DNA from: Actinokineospora spheciospongiae
Lineage (GTDB): Bacteria > Actinomycetota > Actinomycetes > Mycobacteriales > Pseudonocardiaceae
DNA: 64,000 nucleotides
Reading direction: 5' to 3'
Assembly (NCBI RefSeq): GCF_000564855.1
Contig: NZ_AYXG01000016.1
Location: 1-64,000, forward strand
The translations under genes were made by a program, and so were the position numbers. This document shows, one piece after another, positions 38,473 to 64,000 of the stretch; positions within the stretch are counted from its first letter, which is position 1, and every line of letters starts with the position of its first letter. The notes under the pieces are model-generated. The model saw only the letters and a program-made list of their open reading frames with translations, was not told the DNA's origin and ran no database searches.

Positions 38473-38484
38473 GTCTCCTCCGGG

Positions 38485-41566: not shown

Positions 41567-41773
41567 TCAGGCGTACTGGGCGACCAGGCTCTTGGGGCGC
41601 ATGTCGGTCCAGTTGGCCTCGACGTAGGCCAGGCACTCGTCGCGGGAGGACTCCGGCAGGGCGGTGGCCCAGCCCGCCGGGACGGTCACGAACGACGGCC
41701 ACAGGGAGTGCTGGCCCTCGTCGTTGACCAGGACGAGGTAGGTGGCGTCGGTGTCCTCGAAGGGGTTCGACAT
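41567..41773 (-). CDS. MbtH-like protein
   Basis: A 68-residue MbtH-family partner of NRPS adenylation domains, needed for their solubility or activity. All family residues are present: NPFEDTDATYLVLVNDEGQHSLWPSF, VPAGWATALPESSRDECLAYVEANWTDMRP, then KSL. AAGGAG precedes the ATG at 41773. It follows the NRPS-1 stop by 55 bases, so it is translated from the same message as the synthetase it should assist. Confidence 0.97.
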   Translation of the reverse strand: MSNPFEDTDATYLVLVNDEGQHSLWPSFVTVPAGWATALPESSRDECLAYVEANWTDMRPKSLVAQYA

Positions 41774-41828: not shown

Positions 41829-44800
41829 TCAGCGGGTGAGCTGGGTGGGGACGATCCCGGCGAGGGTTTCGCCGATGGTGGTGAGCGGCGCCGGGTCGGC
41901 CAACCCGAGGTGGGTGGCGTCGACGTCGACGACGGTGAGGGCACCGGTCAGGTGCGGGTGCCAGCGGTCGGGGGCGGGCCCGTCGCCCCGGGTGGCGCGG
42001 AAGAGCAGGGCGCCGCCGGTGACCAGGCGCGGGGTGTGGGCGCGGAGCAGGGCGGTGTGGGTGGCCGCCGCGCGGACGAGGGTGGTGACCTCGCGGTGGT
42101 CGAAGTCGGCCAGGACCGGGTCGCGGTCGCGCAGGGCCGTGGCCAGGGCCGCCGGGTCGGTGTCGGTGATGGAACCCGGGTCCTCGAAGAGGGCGCCGAG
42201 GACGTCCGGGGTGATGGTCTCGGTCAGCTCGGCGGGAGCGGCCGAGATCGTGGCCGTGTGGGCGCCGGGGAGGTCCAGGGGCACGCCCCCGGCGGCGGAC
42301 CCGGTCGGGGCCTGGGCCGGGTAGGAGTCGAGCAGGGCGAGCAGGTCGACGTCCTCCCCGACCTCCTGCAACTGGGCCGCCATCTCGTGGGCGACGACCC
42401 CGCCGAAGGACCAGCCGAGCAGCCGGTACGGGCCGTGCGGCTGGACCCGGCGGATGAGGGTCAGGTAGTCGGCGGCCATCTCGGGGACCGAGCGGGCCAC
42501 GTGGTCGGGGTTGGTCAGGGCCCGGGTCTGCAGGCCGTAGACCGGCTGGTCCGGTCCCAGGTGCCGGGTCAGCCCGGCGTACGGCCAGGCCAGCCCCATC
42601 CCGGGGTGCACGCAGAACAGCGGGGTGGCGGTGCCGCCGCGGCGCAGCGGCAGCAGGGTGTCCAGGGCCCGCCCGTCGGCGAGCGGCGCGTCCGCCAGCG
42701 CGGCCAGCGCCGCCGGGGTGGGCGCCCGGAACAGGTCGCGCACCGCGAGTTCGGTTCCCAGCGCGGCTCGGACGCGGCTGACCAGCCGCACCGCGAGGAG
42801 CGAGTGCCCGCCCAGGTCGAAGAACGCGTCGTCGACACCGACCTCCGCCAGCCCCAGGACCTCGGCGAACAGGTCGCACAGGATTCGCTCGCGCGGGGTC
42901 CGGGGCGCCCGGCTGACCCCGGTGCAGACCGCGGGGGCGGGCAGTGCCCGCCGGTCGGGCTTGCCGTTGGGGGTCAGCGGCAGTTCGTCGAGCACCACGA
43001 ACGCCGAGGGCACCATGTACTCCGGCAGCGCGGCCGCCGCCAGCGCCCGCAGCCCGTCGACGTCCACGGTGGACCAGGCGGCGGTCACGTAGGCGACGAT
43101 CCGCTTGTCGCCGGGCCGGTCCTCGCGGACCAGCACGACCACCCCACCGACCTGCGGCGAGGACGCCAGCACCGACTCGATCTCACCGGTCTCGACGCGG
43201 AACCCGCGCAGCTTGACCTGACCGTCGACCCGGCCGAGGAACCGCAGCTCCCCCGAGGTCGACCAGCCCACCCGGTCGCCGGTGCGGTACATCCGCGCCC
43301 CGGCCGGGCCGAACGGGTCGGCGACGAACCGGTGCGCGGTCAGCCCCGGCTGCCCGAGGTACCCGCGGGCCACCTGCTCACCGGCGATGTACAGCTCACC
43401 GACACCGCCCAGCGGGACCGGGAGGAGCCGGTCGTCGAGGGCGTAGAGCCGGTTGTTGTCCAGCGGGATTCCCAAGTGGACGCTGTCGACCGCGCGGGTG
43501 TCGGTGCCGAACCGCTGGTGGCTGGAGGCGAACGTGGTCTCGGTGGGGCCGTAGCTGTGCACGACCACGGTGTCCGGGCAGTGCGACAGCACACGTTGCA
43601 GCGTGGCCGGGGCGACCACGTCCCCACCGGTCCACACCTCACGCAGCCGGGCCAGCGCGTCGAGGTGCTCCTCGGCCATCAGCGCGAACAGGCCCGCGGT
43701 GAAGTAGGCGGCGGTGACGTCGCGCTCGGCGATGACGGTGGCCAGGTGGCGCAGGTCGGCGCCGTCGCCCCCGGCGACCACGAGCGACCCGCCGGTCAGC
43801 AGCGGCACCCACATCTCGTAGGTGGAGGCGTCGAACCCGAAGGCCGAGTGCACCAGCATCCGCCGGTGGGTGTCCGGGTCCCAGCACTCGTCGTGCGCCA
43901 ACTGCACCACGTTCCGGTGGGTCACGCCGACGCCCTTGGGGCGGCCGGTGGAGCCGGAGGTGAACATGATGTACATCAGCGAATCCGCGCCGACCGGGAT
44001 CGCGGGAGCGGGAGCCGGGGTCAGGGCGCCGAGTGCGTCCAGCAGCACCGAGGCGCCGGTCTCGGCCATGATCGTGCGCAGCCGCGCCTCGGGCACCCCG
44101 TCCGGGATCGGCACGTACGCCGCGCCCGCCTTGAGCACACCGAGCACGGCCACCAGCAGCTCGGCGGTGCGGTCCATCCGGATAGCCACAGCCGACCCCG
44201 GGGTGACCCCGTCGGCGATGAGCCGGTGCGCCAGCGCGTTGGCCAGCCCGTCCAAATCGCCGAAGGTCAGCGACCGGGTCCCGTCGCACACCGCCACCTC
44301 GTCCGGGGCGGCCTGGGCGCGGGCGGCGACCAGGTCGTGCACGCAGCCGTCCGGGACCTCGACCGGGGCCCGGTTGAACCCGGTGACCAGTCGCGCCCGC
44401 TCCCCCTCGACCAGCAGGTCCACCTCGCCGACCCGCAGGTCCGGGTCCGCGGCGACGGCGTCGAACAGCAGCCCCAACCGCCGCACGAGCAGTTCGACGG
44501 TCTCCCGGTCGTAGAGGTCGGTGGCGTACTCCACCGTGCCGCGCACCCCGCCGCCCGGGGTTTCCCGCACCGCCAGCGTCAGGTCGAACTTGGCCACGGT
44601 GGCGGCGAACGGCTCCTCGACCGCGTCGAGCGCGGCGTCGGCGGCCTCGGCGTTGTTCTGCAGCACCAGCATCACCTGGAACAGCGGGTGGTGCGCGGTG
44701 GACCGGACCGGGTTCAGCGCCTCCACGACCGCGTCGAACGGCAGGTCCTGGTGCTCGTAGGCGGCCAGGTCGGCGTCGCGGACCCGGTCCAGCAGCTCGG

Positions 44801-47800
44801 CGAACGTCGGCTGCCCGGCCACGTCGGTGCGCAGCACCAGCGTGTTGACGAAGAAGCCGACCAGGTCGTCCAGCGCCTCGTCCAGGCGCCCGGCCACCGG
44901 GGTGCCGATCGGGATGTCGGTGCCCGCCCCGAGCCGGGACAGCACCGCCGCCAGACCGGCCTGCAAGACCATGAACACCGTGGCACCGCGGCCCGCGGCG
45001 ACGCGGCCGAGCCGGACGTGGGTGTCGGCGTCCAATTCGAACGGCACGACGTCGCCGCGGTGGGAGGCGACCGCGGGGCGCGGCCGGTCGGTCGGCAGCT
45101 CCAGCACCGGGGGCGTGTCGGCCAGGGTGGTGCGCCAGAAGTCGAGCTGCGCGGCGGAGACCCCGTCGAGCAGGTCCCGTTGCCAGAGCGCGTAGTCGGC
45201 GTACTGCACCGGCAGCGGCGCCCACCGCGGCGCGTCCCCGGCGAGTCGGGCGGCGTAGGCGGTCGACAGGTCGCGGGTCAGCGGCGCCATCGACCAGCCG
45301 TCGCCCGCCACGTGGTGCAGCAGCAGCACCAGCACCGACGAGTCGCCGTCGCCGAACAGCCACGCCCGGATCGGGATCTCCCCGGACAGGTCGAAGGTGT
45401 GCGCGACCGCGGCGTCCACGCACCCGGGTTCCAGTGTGGACACCGAGAGCACCGGCGTGACCTCCTCAACCGGCAGCACGACCTGGAACGGCTCGCCGTC
45501 GACCGACGGGAACACCGTCCGCAGCACCTCGTGCCGGGCGATGACGTCGCCGAGGGCCGCCCGCAGCGCGTCGGCGTCGACCGAACCGGGCAGGCGCAGC
45601 ACCACCGGCACGTTGTAGGAGGAGCTGGACTCCTCCATCTCGGCGAGGAACCACAGCCGCCGCTGCGCCGCGGACAGCGGCAGCACGTCCGGCCGGGCCA
45701 CCGGCACCAGCGCGGGCCGCACCGGGGCACCGGACAGCTCACCGACCCGGACGGCCAGCCCCGCGGGGGTCGGCGCGCGGAACAGGTCGCGGATCGCCAC
45801 GTCCACCCCGAGGGTGGTGCGGATGCGGCTGATCAGCCGGACCGCGAGCAGCGAGTGCCCACCGGAGGCGAAGAAGCTGTCGTCCGCACCGAGCGCGGGC
45901 AGCCCCAGCACCTCGGCGAACAGCCCGCACAGCGCTTCCTCGCGCGGCGTCCGGGCCGCCCGGCCATCCACCTGGTGGGTGGGGGCGGGCAGGGCGCGGC
46001 GGTCGAGCTTGCCGTTGGCGGTCAGCGGCAACGCGTCGAGCAGCACGAACGCGGCCGGGACCAGGTGGTCGGGCAGGGTCAGCGCGGCGTCGGCCCGCAG
46101 TCGCTCCGGGGTGATGTCGGAGCGGGGCACGCAATAGGCGACCAGGCGCTTGTCGCCTGCGGTGTCCTCGCGGACGACGACGGCGACCCTGGCCAGGTCG
46201 GGGTGGGTGGCGAGCAGGGCCTCGACCTCGCCCGGCTCGACCCGGAAGCCGCGGATCTTGACCTGGTCGTCGGCGCGGCCGAGCAGTTCGACCACCCCGT
46301 CCCCGGTCCAGCGGGCCAGGTCGCCGGTGCGGTACATCCGGTCGCCGGGCCCGCCGTGCGCGTCGGCCACGAACCGCTCCGCCGACAGCGCGGACCGGCC
46401 CAGGTAGCCGTCGGCCAGGCCGGTGCCCGCCACGTACAGCTCGCCCACCACACCGGTCGGGACCGGGCGCAGCCGCTCGTCGAGGACGTAGGCGCGGCGG
46501 TTGCCCATGGGCAGCCCGATCGGCAGCGGGTTGCCGCCGGTCTGCGCGGTGACCTGCTGGGTGTGGGTGAAGACCATGCTCTCCACCGGCCCGTACCCGT
46601 GCACCAGCCGCAGGTCGGGGAACAGCGCGCGGGCCCGGTCCACGTGGTCCAGCGACGGCTTGTCGCCCCCGGTCACGACCTCGCGGACCCGGGTGAAGAC
46701 CTCCGGGTACTCGTCGACCACCAGCGCGAACAGCCCGGCCGACAGCCACAGCGTGGTGATGCCGTGCGCGGCGACCAGGTCGGTGATGCGGTCGGGTTCC
46801 GGGCGCTGGCCGGGTTGCAGCACGCAGGTGCCGCCGTTGAGCAGCGCACCCCAGAACTCCAGGGCGCCCGCGTCCCAGGACACCGGGGCGGCGTGCAGCC
46901 ACACCTGGTCGGGTCCGAAGTCGACGAAGTCCTGGCCGGTGAGCGTGCCGACGAGCGAGCGGTGCGAGGCGAGCGAACCCTTGGGGCGCCCGGACGAGCC
47001 GGAGGTGAACATGACGCTCGCGGCGTCACCCGGGTCCCCGGTGCCCCCGAGCCGGGTGGGGTCCTCGTGCGCGGCGTCGGCCACGGCGATCGCGGGCAGG
47101 CCGAGGGCGAGCCGGTCGGCGGCGGTGACCAGCAGCGCCAGGTCGGCGTCGGCGGCCATCGCGATCAGCCGCTCGTCGGGGAACTCCGGGTCGAGCAGGA
47201 CGTACCCGGCGCCGGTCTTGAGCACCGCCAGCATCGCCACGGCCAGGTCGGTCCCCCGGTCGAGCAGCACGCCGACCAGCCGTCCGCGCCGGGCACCGCG
47301 CGCCGCCAGGTGCCGGGCGAGCCGGTTGGCGGCGGCGTCCAGTTCGGCGTAGGTGGTGCTCCGCCCGTCGAAGACGAGTGCGGTGGCGTCGGGGTTGTCG
47401 TCGACCCGCCGTTCGAAGACCTCGTGGACACGCAGGTCCGGCGCACCGGTCTCGGACGACTCACCGATCCGGGCCCACTCGGCGTCGGTGAGCACGTCCA
47501 CGTCGGCGACGGAGCGGCCCGGGGCGGACAGCACCGCCTCGAACAGCGCGGTCAGCCGGGCCGACAGGATTTCCGCGGTCGCCCGGTCGAACAGGTCGGT
47601 GGCGTACTCGATGCCGCCGGTCAGGCCCGCCTCGGACTCCGCCACGGCGAGGGTCAGGTCGAACTTGGCCACCCCGGGCCGCGACGCCTCCTCGGCGACC
47701 CGCAGCCCGGTGAGGCCGGTGTCCGCGGCAGCGTTGTTCTGCAACACCAGCATCACCTGGAACAGCGGGTGGTGCGCGGTCGAGCGGGTCGGGTTGAGGG

Positions 47801-50800
47801 CTTCCACGAGCTGGTCGAACGGCAGGTCCTGGTGTTCGTAGGCGGCCAGGTCGGCGTCGCGGACCCGGCGGACCAGCTCGGCGAAGGTGGGGTCGCCGGA
47901 CACGTCGGTGCGCAGGACCAGGGTGTTGACGAAGAACCCGACCAGCTCGTCGAGCGCCGCGTCCAGCCGCCCGGCGACGGCCGCGCCGATCGGGACGTCG
48001 GTGCCCGCGCCGAGCTTCGACAGCAGCAGCGCCAACCCGGCCTGCACGACCATGAACGCGGTCGCGCCGGTCTCGGAGGCCAGCGCCCGCAACCGGGCGT
48101 GGGTGTCGGCGTCGAGTGCGAACGGCACGACGTCGCCCGCGTGCGAGGCCACGGCGGGCCGGGGCCGGTCGGTCGGCAGGGTCAGGACCTCGGGGGCACC
48201 CGCCAGCTCCCGCTGCCAGAAGTCGAGCTGCGCGGGCTGGAGGTCGGTCAACAGGTCGCGCTGCCAGAGCGCGTAGTCGGCGTACTGCACCGGCAGCGGC
48301 GGCAGGTCGGCGGCGGTGCCGGAGTACGCGGCGGCCAGGTCGCGCAGCAGCGGGGCCGTGGACCAGCCGTCGCCCGCGATGTGGTGCAGCAGCACCACGA
48401 GCACGTGCTCGGCCGGGGCGACCCGCAGCAGCGTCACCCGGATCGGAATCTCCCCCGCCAGGTCGAAGGTGTGCGCGGTGGCGGCGTCGACCGCGGCCAC
48501 GACGTCCGTGCAGTCGGCGACGGTGACGATCGGACGGACCTCCTCGACCGGCAGCACCACCTGCATCGGTTCGCCGTCGACCGACGGGAACACCGTTCGC
48601 AGCACCTCGTGCCGGGCGACGACCGCGCCGACGGCGGCGGTCAGCGCCGCCACGTCGAGCGCGCCGGTCAGCCGCAGCACGGTGGAGACGTTGTAGGAGT
48701 GGCTGGAACCCTCCAGCTCCGCCAGGAACCACAGGCGGCGCTGGGCGGCGGACAGCGGCAGCACGTCCGGGCGCGGCTGCGGGACCAGCGCGGTGCGCAC
48801 CGGGGCGCCCGCCAGCTCACCGACCCGCGCGGCCAGGTCGGCCACGGTCGGGGTGCGGAACACGTCGCGCACGCCCAGTTCGACGCCGAGCGCGGCCCGG
48901 ACCCGGCTGACCAGGCGGGCGGCGAGCAGCGAGTGCCCGCCGACGGCGAAGAAGTCGTCGTCCGCGCCGACCTCGGCCAGACCCAGGACCTCCGCGTAGA
49001 GCCCGCAGAGGATTTCCTCGCGCGGGGTGCGCGGGGCGCGGCCGGTGGCGGTGAACTCGGGGGTGGGCAACTGCCCGCGGTCGAGCTTGCCGTTGTTGGT
49101 GATCGGCATCCGGTCCAGCAGCACGACCGCCGCGGGCACCAGGTGCTCGGGCAGCGCGCCCGCCGCCCAGGTGCGCAGGTCGCGGCCGGAGACCGCGGCC
49201 CGGGGAACCACGTAGGCGACCAGCCGCGCCGGTTCCCCCTCGGTCTTCCAGGCCACCACGGCGACCTGGGCGACGGCGTCGTGCTTGGCGAACGCGGCCT
49301 CGACCTCCCCGGGCTCGACCCGGAACCCCCGGATCTTCACCTGGTCATCCGCCCGACCCACGAAGTCCAACACCCCGTCAGCGGTCCACCGGGCAAAATC
49401 ACCCGTGCGGTACATCCGCTCACCGGGCTCCCCATGCGGATCAGCCACGAACCGCTCCGCCGTCGTACCGGGCCGACCGGCATACCCACGGGCCAGGCCG
49501 ACACCGCCGAGGTACACCTCGCCCACGACACCGGGCAGGACCGGCCGCAGGTGGGCGTCGAGCACGTAGGCGCGCTTGTTGACCACGGCCCGCCCGACCG
49601 GCACCGAGCCTTCGACGTCGGCGGGCACCACGTGCGTCGTGGTGAAGCCCATCGACTCCGCCGGGCCGTACCCGTTGGCCACCACCAGGTCCGGGAACCG
49701 GGCGAGCACCCGGGCGACGTGCACGGCGGAGGCCGCCTCACCGCCGGTGAAGGCGATCCGCACGCCCTCGAACGCTGCCGGGGTCTCGTCGACGAGGAAG
49801 TTGAACAGGCTGGAGGACAACTGGAGCATGGTCACCCCATGCTCGCCCACCAGCCGCTCCACCACCGCGGGCTCGGGCCGCTGCCCGGGGTGCAGCACGC
49901 ACAGCCCGCCGAAGGCGAGCGCCCCCCAGAACTCCAGCGAGAAAGCGTCCCAGGAGACCGGGGAGCACTGGAGGAACACCTCGTCGGGGCCGAAGGTGGC
50001 GTAGTCCTGGCCGAGCAGGCTGCCGACCAGCGCCCGGTGCGATGCCACCACGCCCTTGGGGCGGCCGGTGGAGCCGGAGGTGAACATGACGCAGGCGACG
50101 TCGTCGGGCGAGATCGGCAGGTTCAGGTTCGCCTCGGACAGCGCCGGGACCCGGGCGATGTCGAGGGTCGGTACGCACACCCGGGCGGCCGATGTCGAGT
50201 CGGTGACGACCACGCCGACCCCGGTGTCCTCGACGACCACGGCGAGCCGCTGGTCGGGGAAGTCGGGGTCGAGCACGGTGTAGCCCGCGCCCGCCTTGGC
50301 CACCGCGACGACGGCCACGGCGAACTCGACCCCGCGCTCCAGCAGCACCCCGACCACGTCACCGCGCCGGACACCGTGCGCGAGCAGGTGCCGGGCCAGC
50401 CGGTTCGCCCGGGCGTTCAGCTCGGCGTAGGTGACCCGGGTGCCGTCGAAGGCGAGCGCGTCGCCGGTGGTGTGCCGCTCGACCAGGTCGACCAGCGTGA
50501 CCTCGCCGAGGGAGACCGGCGCCGGGTTCCACCCGTCGAGGACCTGCCCGCGCAGGCCCGGGGTGAGCACGTCGAGCCGGTCGACCGGGCGGGTGGGGTC
50601 GGCGGCGAGCTGGTCGAACAGGTGCGCCAGCGCGTCGGCCACCCGCAGCACGGTGGAGCGGTCGAACAGGTCGGTGGCGTACTCCAGCACACCTTCCACG
50701 CCGTGCGCGGTCTCGTGCACGGCCAGGGTCAGGTCGAATTTGGCCGCGCCGGTGGTGAACGGCACGTCGGTCGCCGCCAGGTCCGCGAAGGGCGCGGGCG

Positions 50801-53800
50801 CCGGGGCATCGTTGAGCAGGAGCAGCACCTGCACCAGCGGGTGCCAGGCCAGCGAGCGGGTGGGGTTGAGCGCCTCCACCAGCGACTCGAACGGCAGGTC
50901 CTGGTGATCGAAGGCGGCCAGGTCGGCGTCGCGGACCCGGGCGACCAGGTCGGCGAAGCCGGGGTTGCCGGACACGTCGGTGCGCAGCACCAGCGTGTTG
51001 ACGAAGAAGCCGACGACCTCGTCCAGCGCGGCGTCGGTGCGCCCGGCCACCACGGTGCCGATCGACACGTCGGTACCCGCTCCCAGCCGCGACAGCAGCA
51101 GCGCGAACCCGGCCTGCAACACCATGAACGGCGTCGCCCCGGCTTCGGCGGCGATCCGGCGCAGTCCGGCGTGGGTCTCGGCGGAGAGGGCGAACGGGAC
51201 GGTGTCACCGCGGAAGGTCGGCGCGGCCGGGCGGACCCGGTCGTGCGGCAGGGCCAGCACCTCCGGGGCACCGTCGAGCGCGGTCCGCCAGAAGTCGAGC
51301 TGCCCGGGGCCGATGTCGGCGAGCAGGTCGGCCTGCCAGAGCGCGTAGTCGGCGTACTGCACCGGCAGCGAAGTCCACTGTGGAGCGCCCCCGGCGCGGC
51401 GGGCGGTGTAGGCGTCGGCGAGGTCGCGCAGCAGCGGGCCGGTGGACCAGCCGTCGGTGGCGATGTGGTGGACCAGCAGGACGAGCACGTGCTCGGTCGG
51501 GCCGACCGCGAACAGCCAGGCGCGGACGGGCAGTTCGGTGGCCAGGTCGAAGGTGTGCGTCAGCGCGCGGGCGACCTCGGCGGGCACGGCCACGGCCGGG
51601 CAGTCGCGCACCAGCAGGCTCGGCGCGGCGTCGAGGAGCACCTGCCTCGGCTCGCCGTCCACGGCCGGGTACACCGTGCGCAGCGCCTCGTGCCGGGCGA
51701 CGACGTCGCCGAGGGCGGCGGCGAGCGCGGCGTGGTCGAGCAGGCCGGTGATCCGCTTGGCGACCTGCACGTTGTACGACGTGCTCGGCCCCTCCATCCG
51801 GTTGGCGAACCACAGGCGGCGCTGCGCCGACGACAGCGGCAGCACCTCCGGGCGCTCGGCGGCCACGACCGCCGGGCGGACCGGCAGCCCGGCCAGCTCG
51901 CCGACCCTGGCGTCGAGACCGGCCGGGGTGGGTGCGCGGAACAGGTCCCGGACCGCGACCTCCACCCCGAGCACGGCGCGGATGCGGGCCACCAGCCGGA
52001 CCGCGAGCAGCGAGTGCCCGCCGACCTTGAAGAAGTTGTCGGTGGCGGCGACCGGCCTGCCCAGCGCCTCGCCGAAGAGCCCGCACAGGATCTCCGCCCG
52101 CGGCGACACCGATCCCGCGACCGCGACTTCGGCGGCCTGCTCCACAGCCACCCGCCTCCGGAACGCCGACCGCTCGGCCTCGGTCAGCGGCACCAGGTCG
52201 TCCACCGGGGCCTGGGCGTCGCCCATCGCGGTCAGCAGGCGCAGGTAGATCCCGGCGAACGCCTCGACGGTCGCGGCGTCGAACAGGTCGGTGGCGTACT
52301 CGAACCAGACGGCCAGCCCGGACCCGGTCTCGGTGCAGGAGATGGTCAGGTCGAACTTGGTGGCGGTCAGCCGCGCCTGGTCCAGGGTGACCGCCAGCCC
52401 ACCGAGGGTCAGTTCGGCCTTGGCGGTGTTCTGCAGGGTCAGCATCACCTGCACCAGCGGGTGCCACGACGGCGAGCGGTCCGGGTTGAGCCCCTCGACG
52501 AGCAGGTCGAACGGCAGGTCCTGGTGGTCGAACGCGGCCAGGTCGGCGTCGCGGACCCGGGCCAGCAGCTCCCCGACGGTCGGGTTGCCGGTGGTGTCGG
52601 TGCGCATGACCAGGGTGTTGACGAAGAACCCGACCAGCTCGTCCAGCGCGTCGTCGGACCGCCCGGCGACCGCGGTGGCGATCGGGACGTCGGCACCGGC
52701 GCCCAGCCGGGACAGCAGCAGGCCCAGGCCCGCCTGCAACGCCATGAACAGGGTCGCGCCGGACTCGGCGGCCACGGCGGTCAGCCGGGCGTGCGCCCGC
52801 GCGTCGAGGGTGACCGCCAGGCCCGCGCCGCGCTGCGTGGGGGTCTGCGGGCGGGGGCGGTCGGTGGGGAGGTGGACCACGGTGGGGGCGCCGTCGAGGG
52901 CGGTCCGCCAGAAGTCGAGCTCGGTGGCGGCGGACCGGTCGAGCAGGTCGCGCTGCCAGAGGGTGTAGTCGGCGTACTGGACCGGCAGCGGCGCGAACCG
53001 CGGCGCGGCGCCGAAGCGGCGGGCGTCGTAGGCGGTGGCCAGGTCGCGCAGCAGCGGCGCCAAGGACCAGCCGTCGGCGGCGATGTGGTGCAGCAGCAGG
53101 ACGAGCGTCGAACCGGTCAGCAGCGCCCGCACCGGCAGCTCACCGGCCAGGTCGAACGGCAGGTTCGCGAACGCCTCCACCTCGGCGGAGTCGTCGACCA
53201 CCAGTTCGGGGCGCGCCTCGGGCAGCACGAGCTGGCACGGCTCGCCGTCGGTGGCCGGGTAGAGCGTGCGCAGCACCTCGTGCCGGGCCACCAGGTCGGC
53301 CAGCGCCGACTCCAGCGCCACCGCGTCCACCGGCCCGCCGAGCCGCAGCACCATCGGCAGGTTGTACGAGGAGCCGGAGCCCTCCATCCGGTCCACGAAC
53401 CACAGTCGGCGCTGCGCGTAGGACAGCGGCAGCACCTCGGGGCGCTCGGCGGGCACCAGTGCCGGGCGCACCGGGGCGCCGGACAGCTCGCCGACCCGGG
53501 CGTCCAGGCCGAGCACGGTCGGCGCCCGGAACAGGTCGCGCACCCCGACCTCCACGCCGAGCACGGCGCGAATCCGGCTGGTCAGCCGCACCGCGAGCAG
53601 CGAGTGCCCGCCGTGCCGGAAGAAGTTGTCGGTGGCCGCGACCGGCCGCCCGAGCGCCTCGGCGAACAGGCCGCTGAGGATCTCCTGGCGCGGGGTCAGG
53701 ACGTGCTCCCCCACCACCGCCTCCGGCGCCGACAGGGACTCGACGAGCCGCGCCGACTCCGCCCGGACGGCGGCGCGGTCCGCGACGAGCAGCAGGTACT

Positions 53801-55133
53801 CCTCCTCGGTGACCACCCGGGCGTCGCCGATCCGGGTGCCCGGCGCGGTCACCATGGTCCGCAGCACCCGGGCGAACACGTCCGCCACCAGGGCGACGGT
53901 CCACTCGTCGAACAGGTCCGTCGCGTACTCGAACCACAGCTCGACCCCGGCGGGCGCCCCGGTCGGCCCGAACGCCTCCGCGCAGGACACCGACAGGTCG
54001 AACTTCACCGATTCCAGCCGCGACGGTTCCTCCACCGCGGTCAGCCCGGGGAAGTCCACCACGGCCGCGGCGTTGTTCTGCAACGTGAGCATCACCTGCA
54101 CCAGCGGGTGCCAGGCCAGCGAGCGCACCGGGTTCAGCGCCTCCACGACCAGGTCGAACGGCAACTCCTGGTGCTCGAACACGGCCAGGTCGGCCTCCCG
54201 AACCCGGCCGAGCAACTCGGCGAAGGTGGGGTCGCCGGAGGTGTCGGTGCGGGTGACCAGGGTGTTGACGAAGAACCCGACCAGGTCGTCGAGCGCCTCG
54301 TCCCCACGACCGGCGACCGCGGTGGCGATCGGGATGTCCTGACCCGCGCCCAGCCGGTCCAGGGCGACCGCGAGCCCGGCCTGCAACGCCATGAACAGGG
54401 TCGCCCCGTGTGAACGCGCCAACCCGAGCAGACCGGCGTGCAGGTCGGCGTCGAGCGCGTGGATGACCCGGCCGCCCCGGCTGGTGGGGGACGCGGGGCG
54501 CACCCGGTCGGCGGGCAGGGCCAGCACCGGGGGTGCCCCGGTGAGGGCGTCCCGCCAGAAGGCGGACTGGACCTCCGCCAGCGTCCCGGAGTCCTCTTCG
54601 GACTCCAACACGTCCCGCTGCCAGAGCGCGTAGTCGGCGTACTGCACCGGCAGCGGTTCCCACCCGGGGGCCGTGCCGGTGCGGCGGGCTGCGTAGGCCT
54701 CGGCCAGGTCCCGCAGCAGCGGGGCCATGGACCAGCCGTCGGCGGCGATGTGGTGCAGCAGCACGACCAGCACGTGCTCCTCGGCCGCGACCCGGAACGC
54801 GGTGGCCCGCACCGGGAGGTCCGCCGCGAGGTCGAAGGTCGAGTTGGCGAACTCCGCCACCCTCCCCGTGGCCTCGTCGGCGGAGCACTCCTCGACGGTG
54901 AAGGCGGGCGCGGTGGCGGGCAGCACCCGCTGGAGCGGCTCGCCGTCGACCGCCGGGTAGACCGTGCGCAGCACCTCGTGGCGCTCGACCACGTCGGCAA
55001 GTGCCGCGGCCAGCGCGCCGGTGTCCAGCGCGCCGGTCAGCCGCAGCACCACCGGCACGTTGTAGGACGAACTGGGCCCCTCCAGGCGGTTCACGAACCA
55101 CAGCCTGCGCTGCGCGTAGGACAACGGGATCAT
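41829..55133 (-). CDS. NRPS-1: C-T-C-T-C-A-T-C-A-T-C-A-T-TE
   Basis: A ~4434-residue non-ribosomal peptide synthetase, the final assembly-line protein of the cluster. Approximate coordinates: C1 55133-53840, T1 at 53610, C2 53430-52130, T2 at 52020, C3 51845-50560, A3 50510-49030, T3 at 48935, C4 48765-47480, A4 47440-45960, T4 at 45860, C5 45690-44420, A5 44350-42900, T5 at 42805, TE 42655-41829. All C domains have HHxxxDGWS (for example [10 protein letters not shown]). Each T has GGHSL. The TE serine is in GWSFGG. Modules 1 and 2 have no A domain; only a ~55-residue linker sits between C and T. No epimerase or methyltransferase domain was seen. ATG 55133 follows GAAGGAG by seven bases; TTG 55139 is possible. 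Confidence 0.97.
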
Positions 55134-55185
55134 TGCCAACTCCTTCGGCTGTGGTGGGTGGACCCTTGGGACAAGAGGGGTTCGG

Positions 55186-56877
55186 TCAGGAGAAGAGGGC
55201 TTCGATGACCTGCGCGAGGTCGCGCAGCCGCGGGTTCTGGTAGACCGCCTTGACCGGCAGGGCGACCCCCAACTCCGCGCGCACCTTGGCCACCAGCTTG
55301 ATCGCCAGCAGCGAGTGCCCGCCGAGCTTGAAGAAGTTCGCGTCCGCCGACAGGTCTTGCACGCCGAGCACGTACGACCACACCTCGGCGATCAGCCGCT
55401 CGACCGGACTGTCCAGTCCGGTCGTCCCGGCGTCGGCCGGGGCGGTGACCACTGGTGCGGGCAGTGCTCGGCGGTCGAGCTTGCCGTTCACCGTGCGGGG
55501 GAAGGATTCCACTGCGACGAGGACCCCCGGGACCATGTATACCGGAAGAGTTTCCTTCAGGCGTTCAGTTGTCCACAGGGGGGAGATCCCGGGCTTGCCA
55601 CGGTAGTAGCCCACCAGGCCCGGACCGGTCGGGGAGTCGTCCCGGTAGAGCACGGCGGCTTCCTCGATGCCCTCGCACCGGGTCAAGGCGGCTTCGATCT
55701 CACCCAGCTCGATCCGGTGACCGTGCACTTTGACCTGTCCGTCGCGGCGGCCCAGGTACTCCAGGCGACCGTCGGCGTGCCTGCGGGCCAAGTCACCCGA
55801 ACGGTAGACCCTGCTGCCGTCCGCGGCGGCGATGAACCGCTCGGCGGTGAGGCCGGGGCGGTTGCGGTAGCCGCGGGCGACCCGCTCGCCGCCGAGGTGG
55901 ATCTCGCCGACCTCGCCGTCGTCCACCGGGTTCAGCTTCTCGTCGAGCAGGTGCAGCTCCAGGCCGGGCAGCACGGTGCCGATGTGCGGCTCGTGCTCCG
56001 CGGTGACCCACCCGGCAGTGGCGTCCACAGTGCACTCCGTCGGACCGTAGAGGTTGACCGCGCGCAGGTTCTCCTGCGCGGCCATCCGCTGCCACAGCGA
56101 CGGGCTGATCGGTTCACCACCGACCAGCAGCGTCAGCGGCCACGCGATCTCCGCCAGGTGCGGCAGCAGCGGGTCGGCGTGCGAGGGGGTCAGGTCCAGG
56201 TCGGTCAGCCGCTGGTCGACGACCAGCTCGGCCATCAACGCCGGGTCGGCCCGGGTGGCGTCGTCGAGCACGACCACGGTGTCCCCGCGGCACAGCCGGG
56301 TCCACTGCTGCACCGACGCGTCGAACGAGGCGGACGCGTTCCAGCCGACCCGACCCGCGGTGGTGGCGGCGATCCCGGCCGACTCCAGCGCGTCGAGCAG
56401 CAACGCCGCGCTCCCCCGGGTGATCTCCACGCCCTTGGGCAGGCCGGTGGAACCGGAGGTGTAGATGACGTAGGCCAGCGTGTCCGGCTCGACCGGCACC
56501 GGGGCGAAGTCGGCGACCACGCCCGCGGTCAGCGCCTCGACGGACACGGTCCGCACCGCGGCGGTCGCGGACTGGCCGATGACCAGCTCGGCGCGGGCGT
56601 CCTCGACGAGGTACCGCCTGCGCTGCTCCGGCAGCGCCGGGTCGACCGGCAGGTACGCGACCCCGGCGGTGAGCGTGCCCAGCAGGGCGACGACCAGGTC
56701 AGCGCCCCGGGGCAGGCTGATCGCGACCAGGCTCTCCGGGCCGACCCCCCGGGCGGTGAGGGCGGCGGCGACCCTGGCGGCCTCGGCGCGCAGTTCCCCG
56801 AAGCTCAGCTCGCGGTCCCCGGCGACGAGCGCCTGCCGGTCGGCGGGCTGCTGGGCGAGGCGGGTGATGAGGTCCAT
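55186..56877 (-). CDS. stand-alone NRPS adenylation-thiolation didomain
   Basis: A 563-residue A-T protein. The A domain keeps A3 [17 protein letters not shown]5 [10 protein letters not shown]7 [14 protein letters not shown]8 [20 protein letters not shown] and A10 [10 protein letters not shown]. The T domain has [11 protein letters not shown]. By my reading the pocket residues are D-A-Q-S-L-G-L-V-D-K, closest (8 of 10) to the glutamine-type code D-A-Q-D-L-G-V-V-D-K as I remember it, so a polar amide or acid-like substrate is possible. It starts one base after the hydroxylase stop (TGACATG) and 52 bases separate it from NRPS-1. It is the natural candidate to feed the A-less modules. Confidence 0.93.
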
Positions 56878-56878
56878 G

Positions 56879-57907
56879 TCAGGCCCCGTACGGGGTGGTC
56901 GAGGGCTGCGCGGTGGGGGCGCAGTCGGACAGCTCCACCGGGTCGCCCATGCCCACCACGATCTTGCGGGCACCGGAGAACGCCTCCCGGCCGTGCGCGC
57001 ACAGGATGTTGTCGACCAGCAGGAGGTCACCCACCTGGTAGGTCTCGCGCATGGTGACCTCGTCGTAGGCGGCGTTGAGGGTCGCGGCCTCCTCCTCGGT
57101 GAGGGGGGCTCCGTCGCCGAGGTAGGTGGCGAAGGGCAGGCCGTCGGCGCCGTAGGTCTCCACCAGCACGTCGCGGATGTCCGGGTCGAGCGTCCAGGAG
57201 TTCCAGAACGCCATGTGGTTGAACCAGACCCGCTCACCCGTCACCGGGTGGCTGACGATCGCGGACCGGCGCTGGGTGGTGCGCAACGAGTCCTCGTCCA
57301 GCCACTCGTAGCCGATGGTGTGCTCGTCGCAGTAGGCCTCGGCGACGGCCTTGTCCTCGGTGGCGAAGCTGGTCTGCCACGGCAGGCCCGCCATCTCCGA
57401 GAAGTTGCGCACCAGCAGCCACCCGGCCTCCTCGCAGCGGGCGCGCAGGTCCTCGGGCAGCAGCGCCAGCACCCGGCGCATGTCGCCGACGGTGGTGGCG
57501 CCGCCTTCCTCGGGGGCCACCAGGCAACCGAAGAGCAGCGCGCCCGGGAAGTCCAGGGTGTAGCTGTTCTCGTTGTGCAGCCGGATGGGCTGGACCGCGG
57601 GGAGGTCGGTGGAGGAGAAGACACCGCCGCCGAAGTCGCTGCGCGGTGTGGCCTTCTCCTTGTACGAGGCCAGCTTCGGGAAGAGGACGTCGCGGATGGC
57701 CGCGAACGCCTCGTTGCCGGTGACCGGCAGGCCGCGCAGCATCAGGCAGCCCGAGCGCAGCAGCTCGGCGCGGATCGCGGGCAGCGCGTCGGCGACCCAG
57801 CGGGCCGCCTCGTCCAGGTCGGCCACGGCCGGGGCGGTGGCGATCGGGGGCTTTCCCGGCTCGCGGCTCAGGTCCAGCTCGCGCACGGAGTTGTCGAGGG
57901 ATGTCAT
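56879..57907 (-). CDS. SyrP-like Fe(II)/2-oxoglutarate amino-acid hydroxylase
   Basis: A 342-residue TauD/clavaminate-synthase-fold dioxygenase. The iron site HNE (LHNENSYTLDFPGALLFGCLV) and distal AHGREAFSGARKIVVGM provide His, Glu and His plus the 2-oxoglutarate Arg. GGATTVGDMRRVL, YEWLDEDSLRTTQ and HPVTGERVWFNHMAFWN are characteristic of the SyrP/AsnO-like group that beta-hydroxylates Asp or Asn, often tethered to a carrier protein. The ATG at 57907 is preceded by AGGAGG. The very tight junction with the A-T gene suggests the substrate is the residue held on that T domain. Confidence 0.92.
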   Translation of the reverse strand: MTSLDNSVRELDLSREPGKPPIATAPAVADLDEAARWVADALPAIRAELLRSGCLMLRGLPVTGNEAFAAIRDVLFPKLASYKEKATPRSDFGGGVFSSTDLPAVQPIRLHNENSYTLDFPGALLFGCLVAPEEGGATTVGDMRRVLALLPEDLRARCEEAGWLLVRNFSEMAGLPWQTSFATEDKAVAEAYCDEHTIGYEWLDEDSLRTTQRRSAIVSHPVTGERVWFNHMAFWNSWTLDPDIRDVLVETYGADGLPFATYLGDGAPLTEEEAATLNAAYDEVTMRETYQVGDLLLVDNILCAHGREAFSGARKIVVGMGDPVELSDCAPTAQPSTTPYGA

Positions 57908-57928: not shown

Positions 57929-58699
57929 TCAGCCGAGCAGGCTCTGGACGACCTGGCCGACCCGCGTCAGGAACGGGGGCAGGTCCTGCTGGAAGTAGAA
58001 GTGGTCGCCCGCGAACAGCTCCACGGTGGCGCGGTCGGTGGTGACCTCCGACCACGGCGCCAGGGTGTCGAGCGGGACGATCGGGTCGGCGTCGCCGCCG
58101 AGCACGGTCACCGGGCAGCCCAGCGGCGTGGCCGGGCCGGTGTAGCGGTACACGTCGTCGATGCCGAAGTCGGCGCGGATGGCCGGGAGGATGATCTCCC
58201 GCAGCTCCGGCTCGTCGAGGATGCCGTCCTGGGTGCCGCCGCGCGCCTTGATCGCGGCCACGAGCTGGTCGTCATCGAATCGCCCGGCGTCGACCGGGGC
58301 GGGGTTGGCCAGTTGCGGCGCACGGCAGGCGCTGACGACGAGCCCCAGCGGCGGGGTGCCGCGCTCGGTGAGAATCCGGGCCACCTCGAAGGCGACCAGC
58401 GACCCCATCGAGTGACCGAGGACGACCAGCCGACCGGTGTCCTCCGGCAGGCAGTCCACGACCGGGCCCGCGAGGTCCTCGACGTTCTCCGGCAGGTCGT
58501 CGACAAACCGGGCGCCGCGACCGGGGTACTGGCCGATGAGCAGGCGGATGCTCGCGGGCAGGTGCTCCCGCCACTCGGCGTAGGCGTGCGCGTTGCCGCC
58601 CGCGTGCGGCAGGACGAGCAGGTCGGTGGTGCCGGTGCCGAGGGCCCAGACCACGTCCTCGCGGTCGGCCATCGTGCCGGTGCCGTGGGCTGCACTCAT
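57929..58699 (-). CDS. type II thioesterase
   Basis: A 256-residue alpha/beta-hydrolase of the editing type II class that removes stalled or misprimed groups from NRPS carrier domains. The motifs are LVLPHAGGNAHAYAEW, the nucleophile GHSMGS, and the final GDHFYFQQDLPPFL histidine. Nucleophile is Ser, so it is not a SyrC-type cysteine aminoacyltransferase. GGAG precedes the ATG. It heads the downstream operon with the hydroxylase, A-T protein and NRPS-1. Confidence 0.94.
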   Translation of the reverse strand: MSAAHGTGTMADREDVVWALGTGTTDLLVLPHAGGNAHAYAEWREHLPASIRLLIGQYPGRGARFVDDLPENVEDLAGPVVDCLPEDTGRLVVLGHSMGSLVAFEVARILTERGTPPLGLVVSACRAPQLANPAPVDAGRFDDDQLVAAIKARGGTQDGILDEPELREIILPAIRADFGIDDVYRYTGPATPLGCPVTVLGGDADPIVPLDTLAPWSEVTTDRATVELFAGDHFYFQQDLPPFLTRVGQVVQSLLG

Positions 58700-58889: not shown

Positions 58890-61800
58890 TCAACTGGGGG
58901 CGCCCGCCTCGGTGCGCCTGCGCAGCATCGGCCTGCGCGCGGGCTTGGCGGTGCCCTTGGCCTCGATGACCTCGGCCAGTTGCGCCACCGTCGGCGCCTG
59001 GAAGATGTCCCGGATCGTCAGCTCCACGCCCAACGCCGTCCGGACGCGGCTGATCAGCCGGGCGCCGAGCAGGGAATGGCCACCCAGGTCGAAGAAGCTG
59101 TCGTCGATGGTGGGGTTGTCCACAGCCAACAGCTCCGCGTAGAGCCCACAGAGCACGGTCTCCCTCGGATCACGCGGGGGACGACCTTCGGCCTTCGCGG
59201 CGAACTCCGGCGCGGGCAGGGCCCTGCGGTCCAGCTTGCCGTTGGGGGTGAGGGGCAACCGGTCCAGGACGGTGATGACCGACGGCACCATGTGCTCCGG
59301 CAGCCGTTCCGCCGCCCACGACCGCAGCTCCGCACCGGTCGCCGCGGCGACGACGTAGGCGACCAGCCGAGCCGGGCCGTCGGCGCCCCAGGCGACCACC
59401 GCCGCCTGCCAGACCTGTTCGTGGCCGGTCAGCAGCGCCTCGACCTCCCCGGGCTCCACCCGGAACCCCCGGATCTTCACCTGGTCATCGACCCGGCCCA
59501 CGAAGTCCAACACCCCACCAGCGGTCCACCGCGCAAGATCACCTGTGCGGTACATCCGCTCACCAGCCTCCCCGTACGGATCAGCCACGAACCGCTCCGC
59601 CGTCGTACCGGGCCGACCGGCGTACCCACGGGCCAGGCCGACACCACCCAGGTACACCTCGCCCACGACGCCCGGGGGAACCGGTTGGAGCCACCTGTCC
59701 AGTACGTACGCGCGCTTGTTGACCACCGCCCGGCCGACCGGAACCGACCCCTCGACGTCAGCGGGCACCACGTGCGTCGTGGTGAAACCCATCGACTCCG
59801 CCGGACCGTAACCGTTGGCCACACGCAGGTCCGGGAACCGGGCGAGCACCCGGGCGACGTGCACGGCAGAGGCTGCCTCGCCACCGGTGAACGCCAACCG
59901 CACGCCGGTGAACGCTTCCGGTGACTCGTCGACCAGGTAGTTGAAGAGGCTCGAGGACACCTGGAGCATCGTCACCCCGTGTCGGGCCACCAAGTCCGCC
60001 ACCACGGCGGGTTCCGGGCGCTGTCCTGGGTGCAGCACGCACACCCCACCGAACGCGAGCGCGCCCCAGAACTCCAGCGAGAATGCGTCCCACGACACGG
60101 GCGAGCATTGGAGGAACACCTCGTCGGGGCCGAAAGTGGCGTAGTCCTGCCCGAGCAACGTCCCCACCAACGCCCGGTGCGGCGCCACGACCCCCTTCGG
60201 CCGTCCCGTCGAACCCGACGTGAACATCACGCACGCCACGTCGGCAGCCGACAACGGCAACCCCAGGTTCTCCGCCGAGCCGACCGAGTCCTCCACGACC
60301 GCACGCACCCGCGAGGCCGACCCCGTCGAGGTGACCACCAGCGAAACCCCGGTGTCCTCGACCACCACCGCCAGCCGCTCGTCCGGGAAGTCCGGGTCCA
60401 GCACGGTGTACCCGGCCCCGGCCTTCACCACCGCGACGACCGCCACGGCGAAATCGATCCCACGCGGCAACAACACACCCACCACATCCCCCCTCCGCGC
60501 TCCCGCAGCCACCAACTGGCGGGCAAGCCGGTTCGCGCGCATGTTCAAGTCCGAGTACGACAACTTCTCACCCTTGAACACCAACGCCGTCCGATCGGTT
60601 GCAGCGACGCGCTCGAACAGGTCGACCAGGGTCACCTCGGGAACCTCGACGGGGGTCGGGTTCCACTGCGCCAAAACACGCGACCGGTCGTCCTCGGAGA
60701 GGACGGCAACCTCACCCACCCGCAGCCCCGGATCGGCGAGCACCTGGGCCAGCACCCGCCCGAGCGTCATGACCAGCCGCTCGACGGTGGGGGCGTCGAA
60801 CACGTCGGTGTTGAACACGACCAGACCGGTCATGTCCTGGCGCAGCAGGAACTCCAGGTCGAACTTGGCCGTCCCGGTCCCGACGTAGTCCATCCCGGCA
60901 GGCGGGGTGTCCTCCAGCGCCAGGCAGACCTGGAAGAGGGGGTGCCGGGAAAGGGATCGCGCGGGGTTCACCGCATCAATCACCCGATCGAATGGGATCT
61001 CCTGGTGGGAGTAGGCGTCGAGGTCGGTGGAACGCACCCGTCCCAGCAGTTCGGCGAAGGTCGGGTCGCCGGAAGTGTCGGTGCGCAGAACTACCGTGTT
61101 GACGAAGAAACCGACGAGACCGTCCAGGGCGCTGTCCTGGCGGCAGGCCACAGGAGAACCGATGGGGATGTCCGTACCCGCGCCGAATCGCGTCAACACC
61201 ACCGCGAGTGCCGCCTGCACGACCATGAACGGGGTCGTCCGGGTGCTCCGCGCCACCTCGACGAGCCGATCCCGGTCCCCGGGGTCCAGTCCGAACGGGA
61301 CAGTGCCGCCGCGGTGCGACCGCACCGGCGGGCGCGGGCGGTCGAACGGGAGCACGATCTCCTCGGGCAGGTCCGCCAGCGCTTCCCCCCAGAACGCGAG
61401 ACCCCGGGCCACCGTGCTCGTCGGGTCCGACTCGGCGCCGAGGAGGTCGCGGTGCCACAGCGTGTAGTCGACGTAGGAGATGGGCAGCGGAGCCCACTGC
61501 GGGTCGTCGCCTGCGAGGCGGGCGGTGTAGGCGGTTTCGAGGTCGGCGAGCAGGGGGCGCAGCGACAGGCCGTCGGTGGCGATGTGGTGCAGCAGGATCA
61601 ACACGCGGTCGTCGAACAGGGTCACCCGGAGCGGTGCCTCGACGGCGAGGTCGAACCGGTGCGCGGCGGCGGCCCGCACGGCCTCCTCGCTCGCCTGGCC
61701 CGCCTCGTGGAACACCTCGGCCTCGGGCAGCACCCGCTGGTACGGCTCGTCCTCGGCCACCGGGAACACCGTGCGCAGCGGCTCGTGCCGGGCGACGACG

Positions 61801-64000
61801 TCGCGCACGGCCGCGGCCAGTGCGCCGGGTTCGACCCGGTCGAGGCGGAACACCATCGGCACGTTGTAGGCGGTGCCCGCGCCGTCGAAGCGGTCGAGGA
61901 ACCACAGGCGGCGCTGGGCGGGCGACAGCGGCGGACGCTCCGGGCGCTCGGCTGCCACCAGAGCTGGGCGCTCGCCGTCGGAGACGGTGATGCGCGCATC
62001 CAGGGCGGCCACGGTCGGCGCCTGGAAGACATCCCGGATGGTCAGCTCCGCGCCGAGCACCGCGCGGACTCTGGCGGCGAGGCGGGCGGCGAGCAGGGAG
62101 TGCCCGCCCAGGTCGAAGAACCCGTCGTCGACCGTCACCCTCGGCACCCCGAGCACCTCGGCGTAGAGCCCGCACAGGATCTCCTCGCGCGGGGTGCGCG
62201 GCGCCCGGCCCGCACCGGCGGCGGTGAACTCCGGCGTGGGGAGCGCGGCCCGGTCGAGCTTCCCGTTGGCGGTCAACGGGAGCCGGTCGAGGACCACGAC
62301 GGCGGCGGGCACCAGGTGGTCGGGCAGCCGTTCGGCGGTCCACGCCCGCAGGTCCGCCCCGTCGACGTCCCCGACGACGTAGGCGACGAGCCGGTCCGGG
62401 TCCCGCAGCACGACCACCGCGACCTGGGTGACGGCGTCGTGCCGGATGACGGCGGCCTCCACCTCCCCCGGCTCCACCCGGAAACCGCGCACCTTCACCT
62501 GGTCGTCGACACGGCCCACGAAGTCCAACGCCCCCTCGGCGGTCCACCTGGCCTGGTCGCCGGTGCGGTACATCCGCTCGCCGGGCACGCCGAACGGGTC
62601 GGCGACGAACCGCTGCGCGGTGAGCCCCGGCCGGGCCGCGTACCCGCGGGCCAACCCGACACCGCCCAGGTACACCTCACCGACCACCCCGACCGGCACC
62701 GGCCGCAACCGGCCGTCCAGCAGGTACGCGCGCTTGTTGACGACCGCCCGCCCCACGGGCACCGAGCCCTCGACGTCGGCGGCGACGGTGTGGGTGGTGG
62801 TGAACCCCATCGACTCCGCCGGACCGTACCCGTTGGCCACGCGCAGGCCGGGGAACCGGGCGAGCACCCGGGCGACGTGCGCGGCGGAAGCAGCCTCACC
62901 ACCGGTGAACGCCAACCGCACCCCCGCGAACGCCTGCGGCGACTCGTCGACCAGGTAGTTGAACAGGCTCGACGACACCTGGAGCATCGTCACCCCGTGG
63001 CGGCCCACCAGGTCGGCGAGCAGCGCGGGGTCGGGCCGCTGCCCGGGCTGGAGCACGCACGTCCCGCCGAAGGCCAACGCACCCCAGAACTCCAACGAGA
63101 ACGCGTCCCACGACACCGGGGAGCACTGGAGGAACACCTCACCCGGCCCGAAGGTGGCGTACTCCTGTCCCAGCACTGTGCCCACCAGAGCCCGGTGCGG
63201 TGCCACAACCCCTTTCGGCCGCCCGGTCGAGCCGGAGGTGAACATGACGCAGGCGACGTCCTCCGCGGCGACGGCGATGCCCAAGTCGTCCTCGTCCCGG
63301 CCACCGTCGCTCCGTTCGCCGTCGATGACCACTGGCGCCGCCTCGACCCGGCCGAGCTGCGCGGCCTCCACGGCCACGACCCGCACCCCCGCGTCCGCGA
63401 CGACGAGGGCCAGCCGCTCGTCCGGGAAGTCCGGGTCCAGCACCGCGTACCCGGCCCCCGCCTTGAGCACGGCGACGACCGCCACGGCGAACCCGATCCC
63501 GCGCTCGGCGAGCACCCCGACCAGGTCACCGCGCTCGACACCCGCCGCCCGCAACCTACGGGCGAGGTGGTTCGCCCGGGCGTTCAGGTCGCGGTAGGAG
63601 AGGCGTTCGTCATTGAAGACCAACGCCGTCCGGTCGGACCGCGCGACCTTTTCGAACAGGTCGACCAGCGTGACGTCCCCGGTGTCGACCGGGGCGGGGT
63701 TCCACTCCCGGAGCACAGTGTCGCGCTCGGCAGCGGAAAGCACGTCGACATCGGCGACACGGACGTCCGGGTCGGCGGCGAGGGCCCGCAGCAGCTCCAC
63801 GTAGGTGCGCAGGTGGGCGCTCAGGTCGACGGGCAGGGCTTCGTCGATGGTGAACTCGGCCCGCAGACCGCCCTCGGCGAACCTGGTGACGGTCAACGCC
63901 AACTCGTCGGCCGTGCCCCCGACCGACAGGACGTGCGGCCGGGCCACCACGCCGTCGAGGTCGGTGTCGGCGTCGTCGGCGATGACGTTGACGACCGGAC
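58890..64000 (-). CDS. NRPS-2 (partial at 5' end): ...C-A-T-C-A-T
   Basis: The last ~1700 residues of an NRPS that continues beyond the right edge (the frame stays open through base 64000). Visible domains: C-terminal piece of a C domain (64000-63740), A (63690-62200), T (GGHSL near 62110), C with HHIATDG (61930-60680), A (60640-59200), T (59080). It ends with a short basic tail ([13 protein letters not shown]) and no TE, consistent with handing its peptide to NRPS-1. Both A domains have the pocket residues D-A-L-S-F-G-G-G-F-K by my alignment, the same as the A domain of module 3 in NRPS-1. It is followed by its own terminator. Confidence 0.95.

Follow-up and report, generated by a model that had tools for sequence, protein, structure and literature searches.

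How does a nonribosomal peptide synthetase (NRPS) extend its product through two successive modules that both lack an adenylation domain? The question is raised by NRPS-1 of the actinobacterium Actinokineospora spheciospongiae, a protein of 4436 aa encoded on the minus strand (41829-55139) of contig NZ_AYXG01000016.1 (assembly GCF_000564855.1). The stretch of DNA that was analysed, hereafter the window, comprises the first 64000 bases of this 78323-base contig, in a genome of 7.5 Mb and 262 contigs. By Pfam domain search, NRPS-1 contains five condensation (C), three adenylation (A), and five carrier (T) domains and one thioesterase (TE), in the order C-T-C-T-C-A-T-C-A-T-C-A-T-TE, which bears out a preliminary description that had placed C-T-C-T ahead of the first A domain. 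The C-T-C-T start is genuine, and it is conserved in other genomes.

The first A-less module, module 3 of the assembly line, consists of C1 (53793..55136, residues 2-449, Pfam Condensation 295 bits), a 34 aa linker (53691..53792), and T1 (53490..53690, residues 484-550, PP-binding). The second, module 4, consists of C2 (52167..53438, residues 568-991, Condensation 283 bits), a 22 aa linker (52101..52166), and T2 (51900..52100, residues 1014-1080, PP-binding), all on the minus strand. The remainder of the protein, C3-A3-T3-C4-A4-T4-C5-A5-T5-TE by the same Pfam search, occupies 41829..51848 on that strand and begins with C3 (residues 1098-1529) and the first A domain (residues 1546-2025). The span first proposed for the two modules, 51930..55133, matches C1 to about T2; the listed start of NRPS-1 is a TTG at 55139, and 55133 is an alternative start at an ATG two codons further in. 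When the linkers were searched against Pfam as linker-plus-T and C-plus-linker fragments, neither AMP-binding nor AMP-binding_C was found at E<=10, a search in which the HMMER filters discard many weak matches. The sole matches above the curated cut-off were PP-binding or Condensation, and two weak ones fell below it (UBA_RAD5A, E 0.027; NTP_transf_5, E 0.013), in agreement with the earlier statement that only short linkers join C to T. The frame is open throughout, with no internal stop. As read from the translation, C1 and C2 retain HHxxxDG and T1 and T2 retain GGHS (FFR-HGGHS and FFK-VGGHS). A single-sequence structure prediction of C-T-C-T had a mean pLDDT of 35.6 and was not used.

Three genes precede NRPS-1 on the minus strand. 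The nearest encodes a stand-alone A-T didomain (55186..56883; AMP-binding, AMP-binding_C, PP-binding), the proposed loader, with its own carrier, T0. It is preceded by a TauD/TfdA-type dioxygenase (TauD; 56879..57907; PF02668), the proposed hydroxylase of the loaded residue, with HNE and NILCAHGR motifs, the HxE...H of which we take to be the metal site, and by a type II thioesterase (TEII; 57929..58699; PF00975; Ser in GHSMG), a candidate aminoacyl shuttle. Upstream of these lies NRPS-2 (C-A-T-C-A-T, modules 1 and 2; minus strand, 58890..64000, with its start at contig 64970, outside the window), and downstream of NRPS-1 lies an MbtH protein, a probable helper of the A domains (41567..41773, minus strand; PF03621, 96 bits). 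The minus-strand order is therefore NRPS-2, TEII, TauD, A-T, NRPS-1, MbtH, and the assembly line is predicted to have seven modules plus a starter.

The same layout recurs elsewhere. C-T-C-T after the same TauD and A-T genes was found in a second species of the genus (genome G119) and in four other actinobacterial genomes. In a scan of genome contigs, of which the best 80 of 594 matching stretches were examined, a first architecture table contained it in 4/80 (loci L011, L019, L021, and L022). With weak A hits shown, L011 and L022 read C-T-C-T followed by C-(stump or long linker)-T, L019 and L021 read C-T-C-(stump)-T, and L014 reads C-T-C-(broken A)-T. These five have TEII, TauD, and A-T directly upstream, and the order of TEII, TauD, A-T, and A-less C-T is shared by the window, G119, L011, L014 (TEII cut by the stretch end), L019, L021, L022, and G673; on closer reading, six of the loci compared have the TEII and TauD motifs. 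In G119, the gene order equals that of the window from a VinN-like ligase gene to C-T-C-T-C-A-T-C, where the contig ends. Within the genus, TauD is matched at 1e-80 in 4/16 genomes, and C-T-C-T is present in the window genome and in G119. Across the taxonomic family (Pseudonocardiaceae), TauD is matched at 1e-80 in 66/297 genomes; among 7 of the 65 others with surroundings read, C-T-C-T occurs in G119 only, and G184 has C-T-C-(154-residue linker, 28-bit A hit)-T. In the class, 8/394 genomes match TauD at 1e-105, the window's own included, and the surroundings of all seven others were read. C-T-C-T is present in G628 and G673, the G333 sequence stops inside its first C domain, G652 shows a lone A-less module at one place out of two, and C-T-C-T was not seen in G619, G573, or G589, the last a short contig with only C-domain pieces. 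G673, a genome in one contig, carries the complete line: C-A-T-C-A-T, TEII, TauD, A-T, and C-T-C-T-C-(106 residues)-T, followed by A-C-T-C-A-T-TE, GlmS, GlmE, AsnA, and FMN.

At this place, C-A-T-C-A-T is absent from every C-T-C-T homologue. Because the layout is conserved in several genomes, it is not a sequencing error; no frameshift was found in NRPS-1, and the open frame, the linker search, and the conservation together rule out a hidden A domain as well. Complete modules do occur at other loci with a related TauD: in G179 and G228, of the same genus, it stands beside complete modules with no A-T protein next to it, and TauD was for this reason rejected as a marker of A-less lines.

The origin of the tandem was approached through a tree of 53 C domains, from which the starter C domains of the window, G119, L022, and G673 were dropped. 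C1 and C2 of the window each pair with their G119 counterpart, and all four form one clade (99/96). A second clade (98/94) unites the two A-less C domains from each of L022, G673, and G628, and the L011 pair is placed with L019 (100/99). The separate clades of paired copies indicate doublings of the A-less C-T unit in three lineages, or else conversion that homogenised older copies. In the Streptomyces relatives, the A-less NRPS is followed by a protein of unusual domain order, A-C-T-C-A-T-TE (L014:8450-11683, L019:8652-11717, L021:8594-11641, L022:15952-18984), the A-C-T part of which has a C domain that clusters with the A-less ones.

Module skipping occurs in NRPSs, and one or both A-less modules might be unused for elongation, with the chain passed through or the module skipped. 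This is very improbable for NRPS-1, given that C1 and C2 keep HHxxxDG, that T1 and T2 keep GGHS, and that the A-less unit is doubled in separate lineages. Identity to G119 is moreover 75, 84, 77, and 81% for C1, T1, C2, and T2, respectively, as against just 41% for linker 2.

In the preliminary description, the A domain had also looked precisely absent. Its absence stands, there being no AMP-binding match; a clean excision is placed in doubt by the module that follows, where relatives display stages of A-domain decay, and the clean absence may thus be the end of an erosion rather than an excision. In the window, A3 retains its core motifs by eye. Its ortholog in module 5 of G119 is full length and 72% identical, and has lost the SGSTGRPKG loop and the Lys of the last motif, with the Asp that holds the amino group replaced by Asn. 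The corresponding segment has 415 residues without the SGSTGRPKG loop in L014 and 152-157 residues in L011, L019, and L021, where it matches only A-profile positions 358-467 of 479. It has 151, 158, and 106 residues in L022, G628, and G673, respectively, with no A hit by profile, an A remnant being visible by eye in L022. Judged by its motifs, the A domain of the next module decays from intact (window) through full-length but apparently dead (G119) to stumps (Streptomyces). The carrier of this module in G119 is similar to T1 and T2, and a tree based on few columns places it with them (SH-aLRT 92); this does not apply to the window's carrier after A3.

A single carrier position tracks this distribution. 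At the residue after FF, two before GGHS, Lys or Arg (K/R) is found in 10/10 A-T carriers of the cluster family and, across the ten family loci counted, in 23/23 modules without a working A domain (module 5 of G119 included) and in 1/19 modules whose protein contains an A domain, namely the A-C-T module of L014. In the window, T0, T1, and T2 share K/R, and the cis-loaded carriers, those of A3-A5 among them, are without it. The module-1 carriers of the window, G119, L022, and G673 stand outside this count and all have Asp; three C rows without a carrier in the same frame (L036_c1, L036_c6, and G119_c6) were left out. If L036 and L053, which are not family members, are added, the counts become 23/24 A-less against 1/26 with an A domain, one A-less module of L036 having Ala. 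In the remaining loci, K/R occurs in 13/320 carriers with an A domain, 0/15 A-less carriers, and 0/17 A-T carriers; here carriers with an unreadable motif were counted in n, and those under the unreliable label dA (A domains split into several hits) were pooled with the carriers having an A domain. Given this rarity, K/R does not distinguish A-less modules at large. Of the sister-cluster loci that contain both kinds of carrier, 4/5 have Ala on the A-less one and Ala or Ser on the A-T carrier linked to TauD. Such matched residues on A-T and A-less carriers suggest that one partner reads both.

The marker also bears on whether the two A-less carriers are charged with unlike residues, the A-T protein supplying one of them and the other coming from an A domain of NRPS-1 in cis or from some enzyme encoded elsewhere. 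With 79 C-domain matches, the genome abounds in NRPSs, and other A domains exist that could serve. Still, T1 and T2 are 85% identical, C1 and C2 are sister copies, and both carriers share with T0 a marker that those of A3-A5 lack, and we regard two different residues as very improbable.

Since the A-T protein directly upstream is the sole extra amino-acid-activating protein beside the two A-less modules, one loading system is the most economical reading, as the preliminary description had supposed. The shared K/R fits this, the charging of both carriers would follow from it, and the system would be wider than first envisaged, with the hydroxylase and a possible TEII shuttle belonging to it. 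The code of the A-T protein is DAQDVGLVDK, and the TauD-linked A-T code is DAQD(V/I/M/L)G(L/V)VDK in 12 other aligned loci; we take this type to denote Gln or Glu. The codes of the other A domains, obtained by alignment, are DALQTGGGFK (A1, A2, and A3), DALWTGGVFK (A4), and DAYYTGSFAK (A5). In the mechanism that we consider rather probable, the A-T protein would activate one amino acid, probably Gln/Glu, and load it onto T0, where the TauD-type dioxygenase would probably hydroxylate it. The residue would then be delivered to T1 and T2, most likely by TEII acting as aminoacyl shuttle; C1 would take the chain from NRPS-2 and add the residue, and C2 would repeat the step on its doubled C-T unit, with the outcome that the residue is added twice in a row. 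K/R before GGHS of T0, T1, and T2 would be part of the recognition, and the next module, with its A domain in decay, would be in the course of capture by this supply. What the sequences show directly is the domain layout and how it is conserved, the C-T copies in pairs, and the stages of A-domain decay; which residue is used, its hydroxylation, its transfer by a shuttle, and its loading onto both T1 and T2 are what we infer. SyrC is a Cys-type transferase; the genes searched include no candidate for a shuttle of that kind, and the window TEII has Ser in GHSMG.

Several observations weigh against this mechanism. GHSMG is an ordinary motif, as compatible with editing as with a shuttle function, and the best solved matches of the TEII are ordinary TEIIs such as RifR. 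The TauD proteins beside the complete modules of G179 and G228, with no A-T protein, are related to that of the window (63-66% identity), and the reading of the A-T code as Gln/Glu is no more than probable. The K/R pattern was noticed post hoc in the same related rows, and of the independent pairs on the tree, four agree, one is undecided, and none disagrees (sign test p 0.125). Furthermore, the A-C-T module of L014 has Arg despite an A domain in the protein, and the sister locus G142 has Ala on T0 and Asp on the A-less carrier.

The main rival is direct loading of the capreomycin type, in which the A domain of the A-T protein would charge T1 and T2 in trans, TauD would act on the residues bound there, and TEII would only edit. 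The ordinary appearance of the TEII and the marker shared by T0, T1, and T2 suit this alternative, and direct trans-iterative loading has been reported from CmnA-A1 to CmnI-T in capreomycin biosynthesis (PMC12400406), as has a single A domain that loads three cysteines in cis and trans in that of yersiniabactin (PMC7539972). Going by the cited passages, CmnA-A1/CmnI and HMWP2 resemble the present proposal in that one A domain serves more than one carrier, and differ in that this domain lies within another NRPS module, the trans-iterative trait, where the window has a stand-alone A-T protein as candidate loader. Direct loading would, however, need neither the intact carrier T0 that the A-T protein keeps nor the TEII that accompanies the TauD and A-T genes in seven other loci, and we regard it as a minority possibility, about one chance in four in our judgement.

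For the shuttle mechanism, the closest shown precedent is LgnA of legonmycin biosynthesis, a Ser-type TEII that takes Thr from a stand-alone A-T0 and passes it to T1 of an A-less C-T (PMC8748450). The LgnA/LgnB/LgnD system (C-T-C-A-T-TE) shares with the window the stand-alone A-T protein, the Ser-type TEII, and the N-terminal A-less C-T of the main NRPS. It has one A-less module where the window has two in a row, and a TauD gene between TEII and A-T is present only in the window. In addition, LgnD-T1 carries GGDSx, the form that goes with a dehydrating C domain (PMC10880069), whereas T1 and T2 of the window have GGHSL, which by inference speaks against dehydrating C domains here. The window system would work like this cassette but, lacking GGDSx, is not filed as a member of it. 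Otherwise the window has the stand-alone A-T beside the main NRPS, a TEII with GHSxG, which ordinary TEIIs share, and two A-less C-T units as presumed receivers. It has the traits of the general trans-loaded kind, C and T being present, A absent, and a stand-alone A domain encoded in the cluster.

C-T didomains in the middle of other NRPSs have likewise been noted, with WS9326A and rotihibin discussed, and TEIIs have been proposed as shuttles for the A-less module of the WS9326A type (PMC8748450). In the passages cited, both have a single A-less module (PMC7539972; PMC8552735). For WS9326A, the stand-alone A proteins Cal22 and Cal23 serve the A-less C-T of Cal19, as here, with the difference that two loaders feed one module used twice, and in the window one loader seems to feed two (PMC7539972). 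RthB, RthD, and RthA of rotihibin provide an A-T protein, a protein resembling TEII, and a main NRPS with an A-less module, as in the window; a hydroxylase for that residue is not described in the passages concerned (PMC8552735). In the systems of syringomycin (SyrB1/SyrC/SyrE), enduracidin, ramoplanin, and albicidin, a stand-alone A-T supplies, in the passages cited, one module each, against two in the window, in which the A domain is absent (SyrE) or inactive (albicidin), the latter resembling module 5 of G119 (PMC8949500). An A-less module that stands alone and is supplied by an A-T protein is thus already known, as the preliminary description had said, and its judgement that two in a row are unusual also holds. 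The tandem run appears to be new among them, no description of two tandem A-less C-T modules having been met in the open-access passages cited, which does not prove that there is none.

What sets the system apart is the tandem A-less run, the repeated doubling, the eroding A domain next to it, and a candidate address on the carriers. Drawing them together, we suggest tentatively, and with less confidence than for the mechanism itself, that the run lengthens in two ways, by tandem C-T doubling and by capture of the neighbouring module, the carrier of which changes to K/R while its A domain dies. One set of A-T protein, hydroxylase, and shuttle would then serve two or three identical residues, with K/R before GGHS as the address. 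If this is true, a block of modules in this cluster family no longer obtains its amino acids in cis and has come to depend on supply in trans, and the carrier address can be read from sequence. These natural, related assembly lines show A-domain loss at several stages together with a candidate one-residue address, which makes two questions testable, namely what guides trans-loading systems to their carriers and by what route A domains disappear from NRPSs. Were the address real, bare C-T units could be used to repeat a residue in engineered lines without adding an A domain.

The genes around the assembly line give a hint of its starter. Outside the window, the minus strand encodes, at contig 75728-77263, a VinN-like ligase, for which 3wvn is the best solved match (496 bits), and, at contig 74194-75747, a BtrK-like decarboxylase with an acyl carrier protein (ACP) fused to it (2j66, 183 bits). 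Between the latter and NRPS-2, toward NRPS-1 on the minus strand, are SARP regulators, an SDR, and an ACP, and beyond MbtH are genes for glutamate mutase, an AsnA-like protein, and a glutamate-synthase-like FMN protein. In a review, structures 3WV4, 3WV5, and 3WVN are ascribed to VinN, the substrate of which is given as beta-methylaspartate (PMC11253843), and a starter derived from methylaspartate is therefore plausible. The glutamate mutase (window 38485-40103), together with the VinN-like ligase and the decarboxylase-ACP (L009:14194-17263, contig 74194-77263), suggests such an NRPS starter. The GlmS-GlmE-AsnA-FMN set (window 36221-40103) recurs by related NRPSs, for example in L014, L015, L021, L028, L053, G252, G573, and G673, often together with A domains of DALQ/DGLQ/DALH code, and may make the residue of those domains. 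Further along, at window 34130-36118, there is by eye a membrane-transporter-like protein with a long, repeated N-terminus rich in Gly/Ala/Pro, the true start of which may be further in. At contig 77264-78323, outside the window, the translation resembles, again by eye, a degraded transposase with stops.

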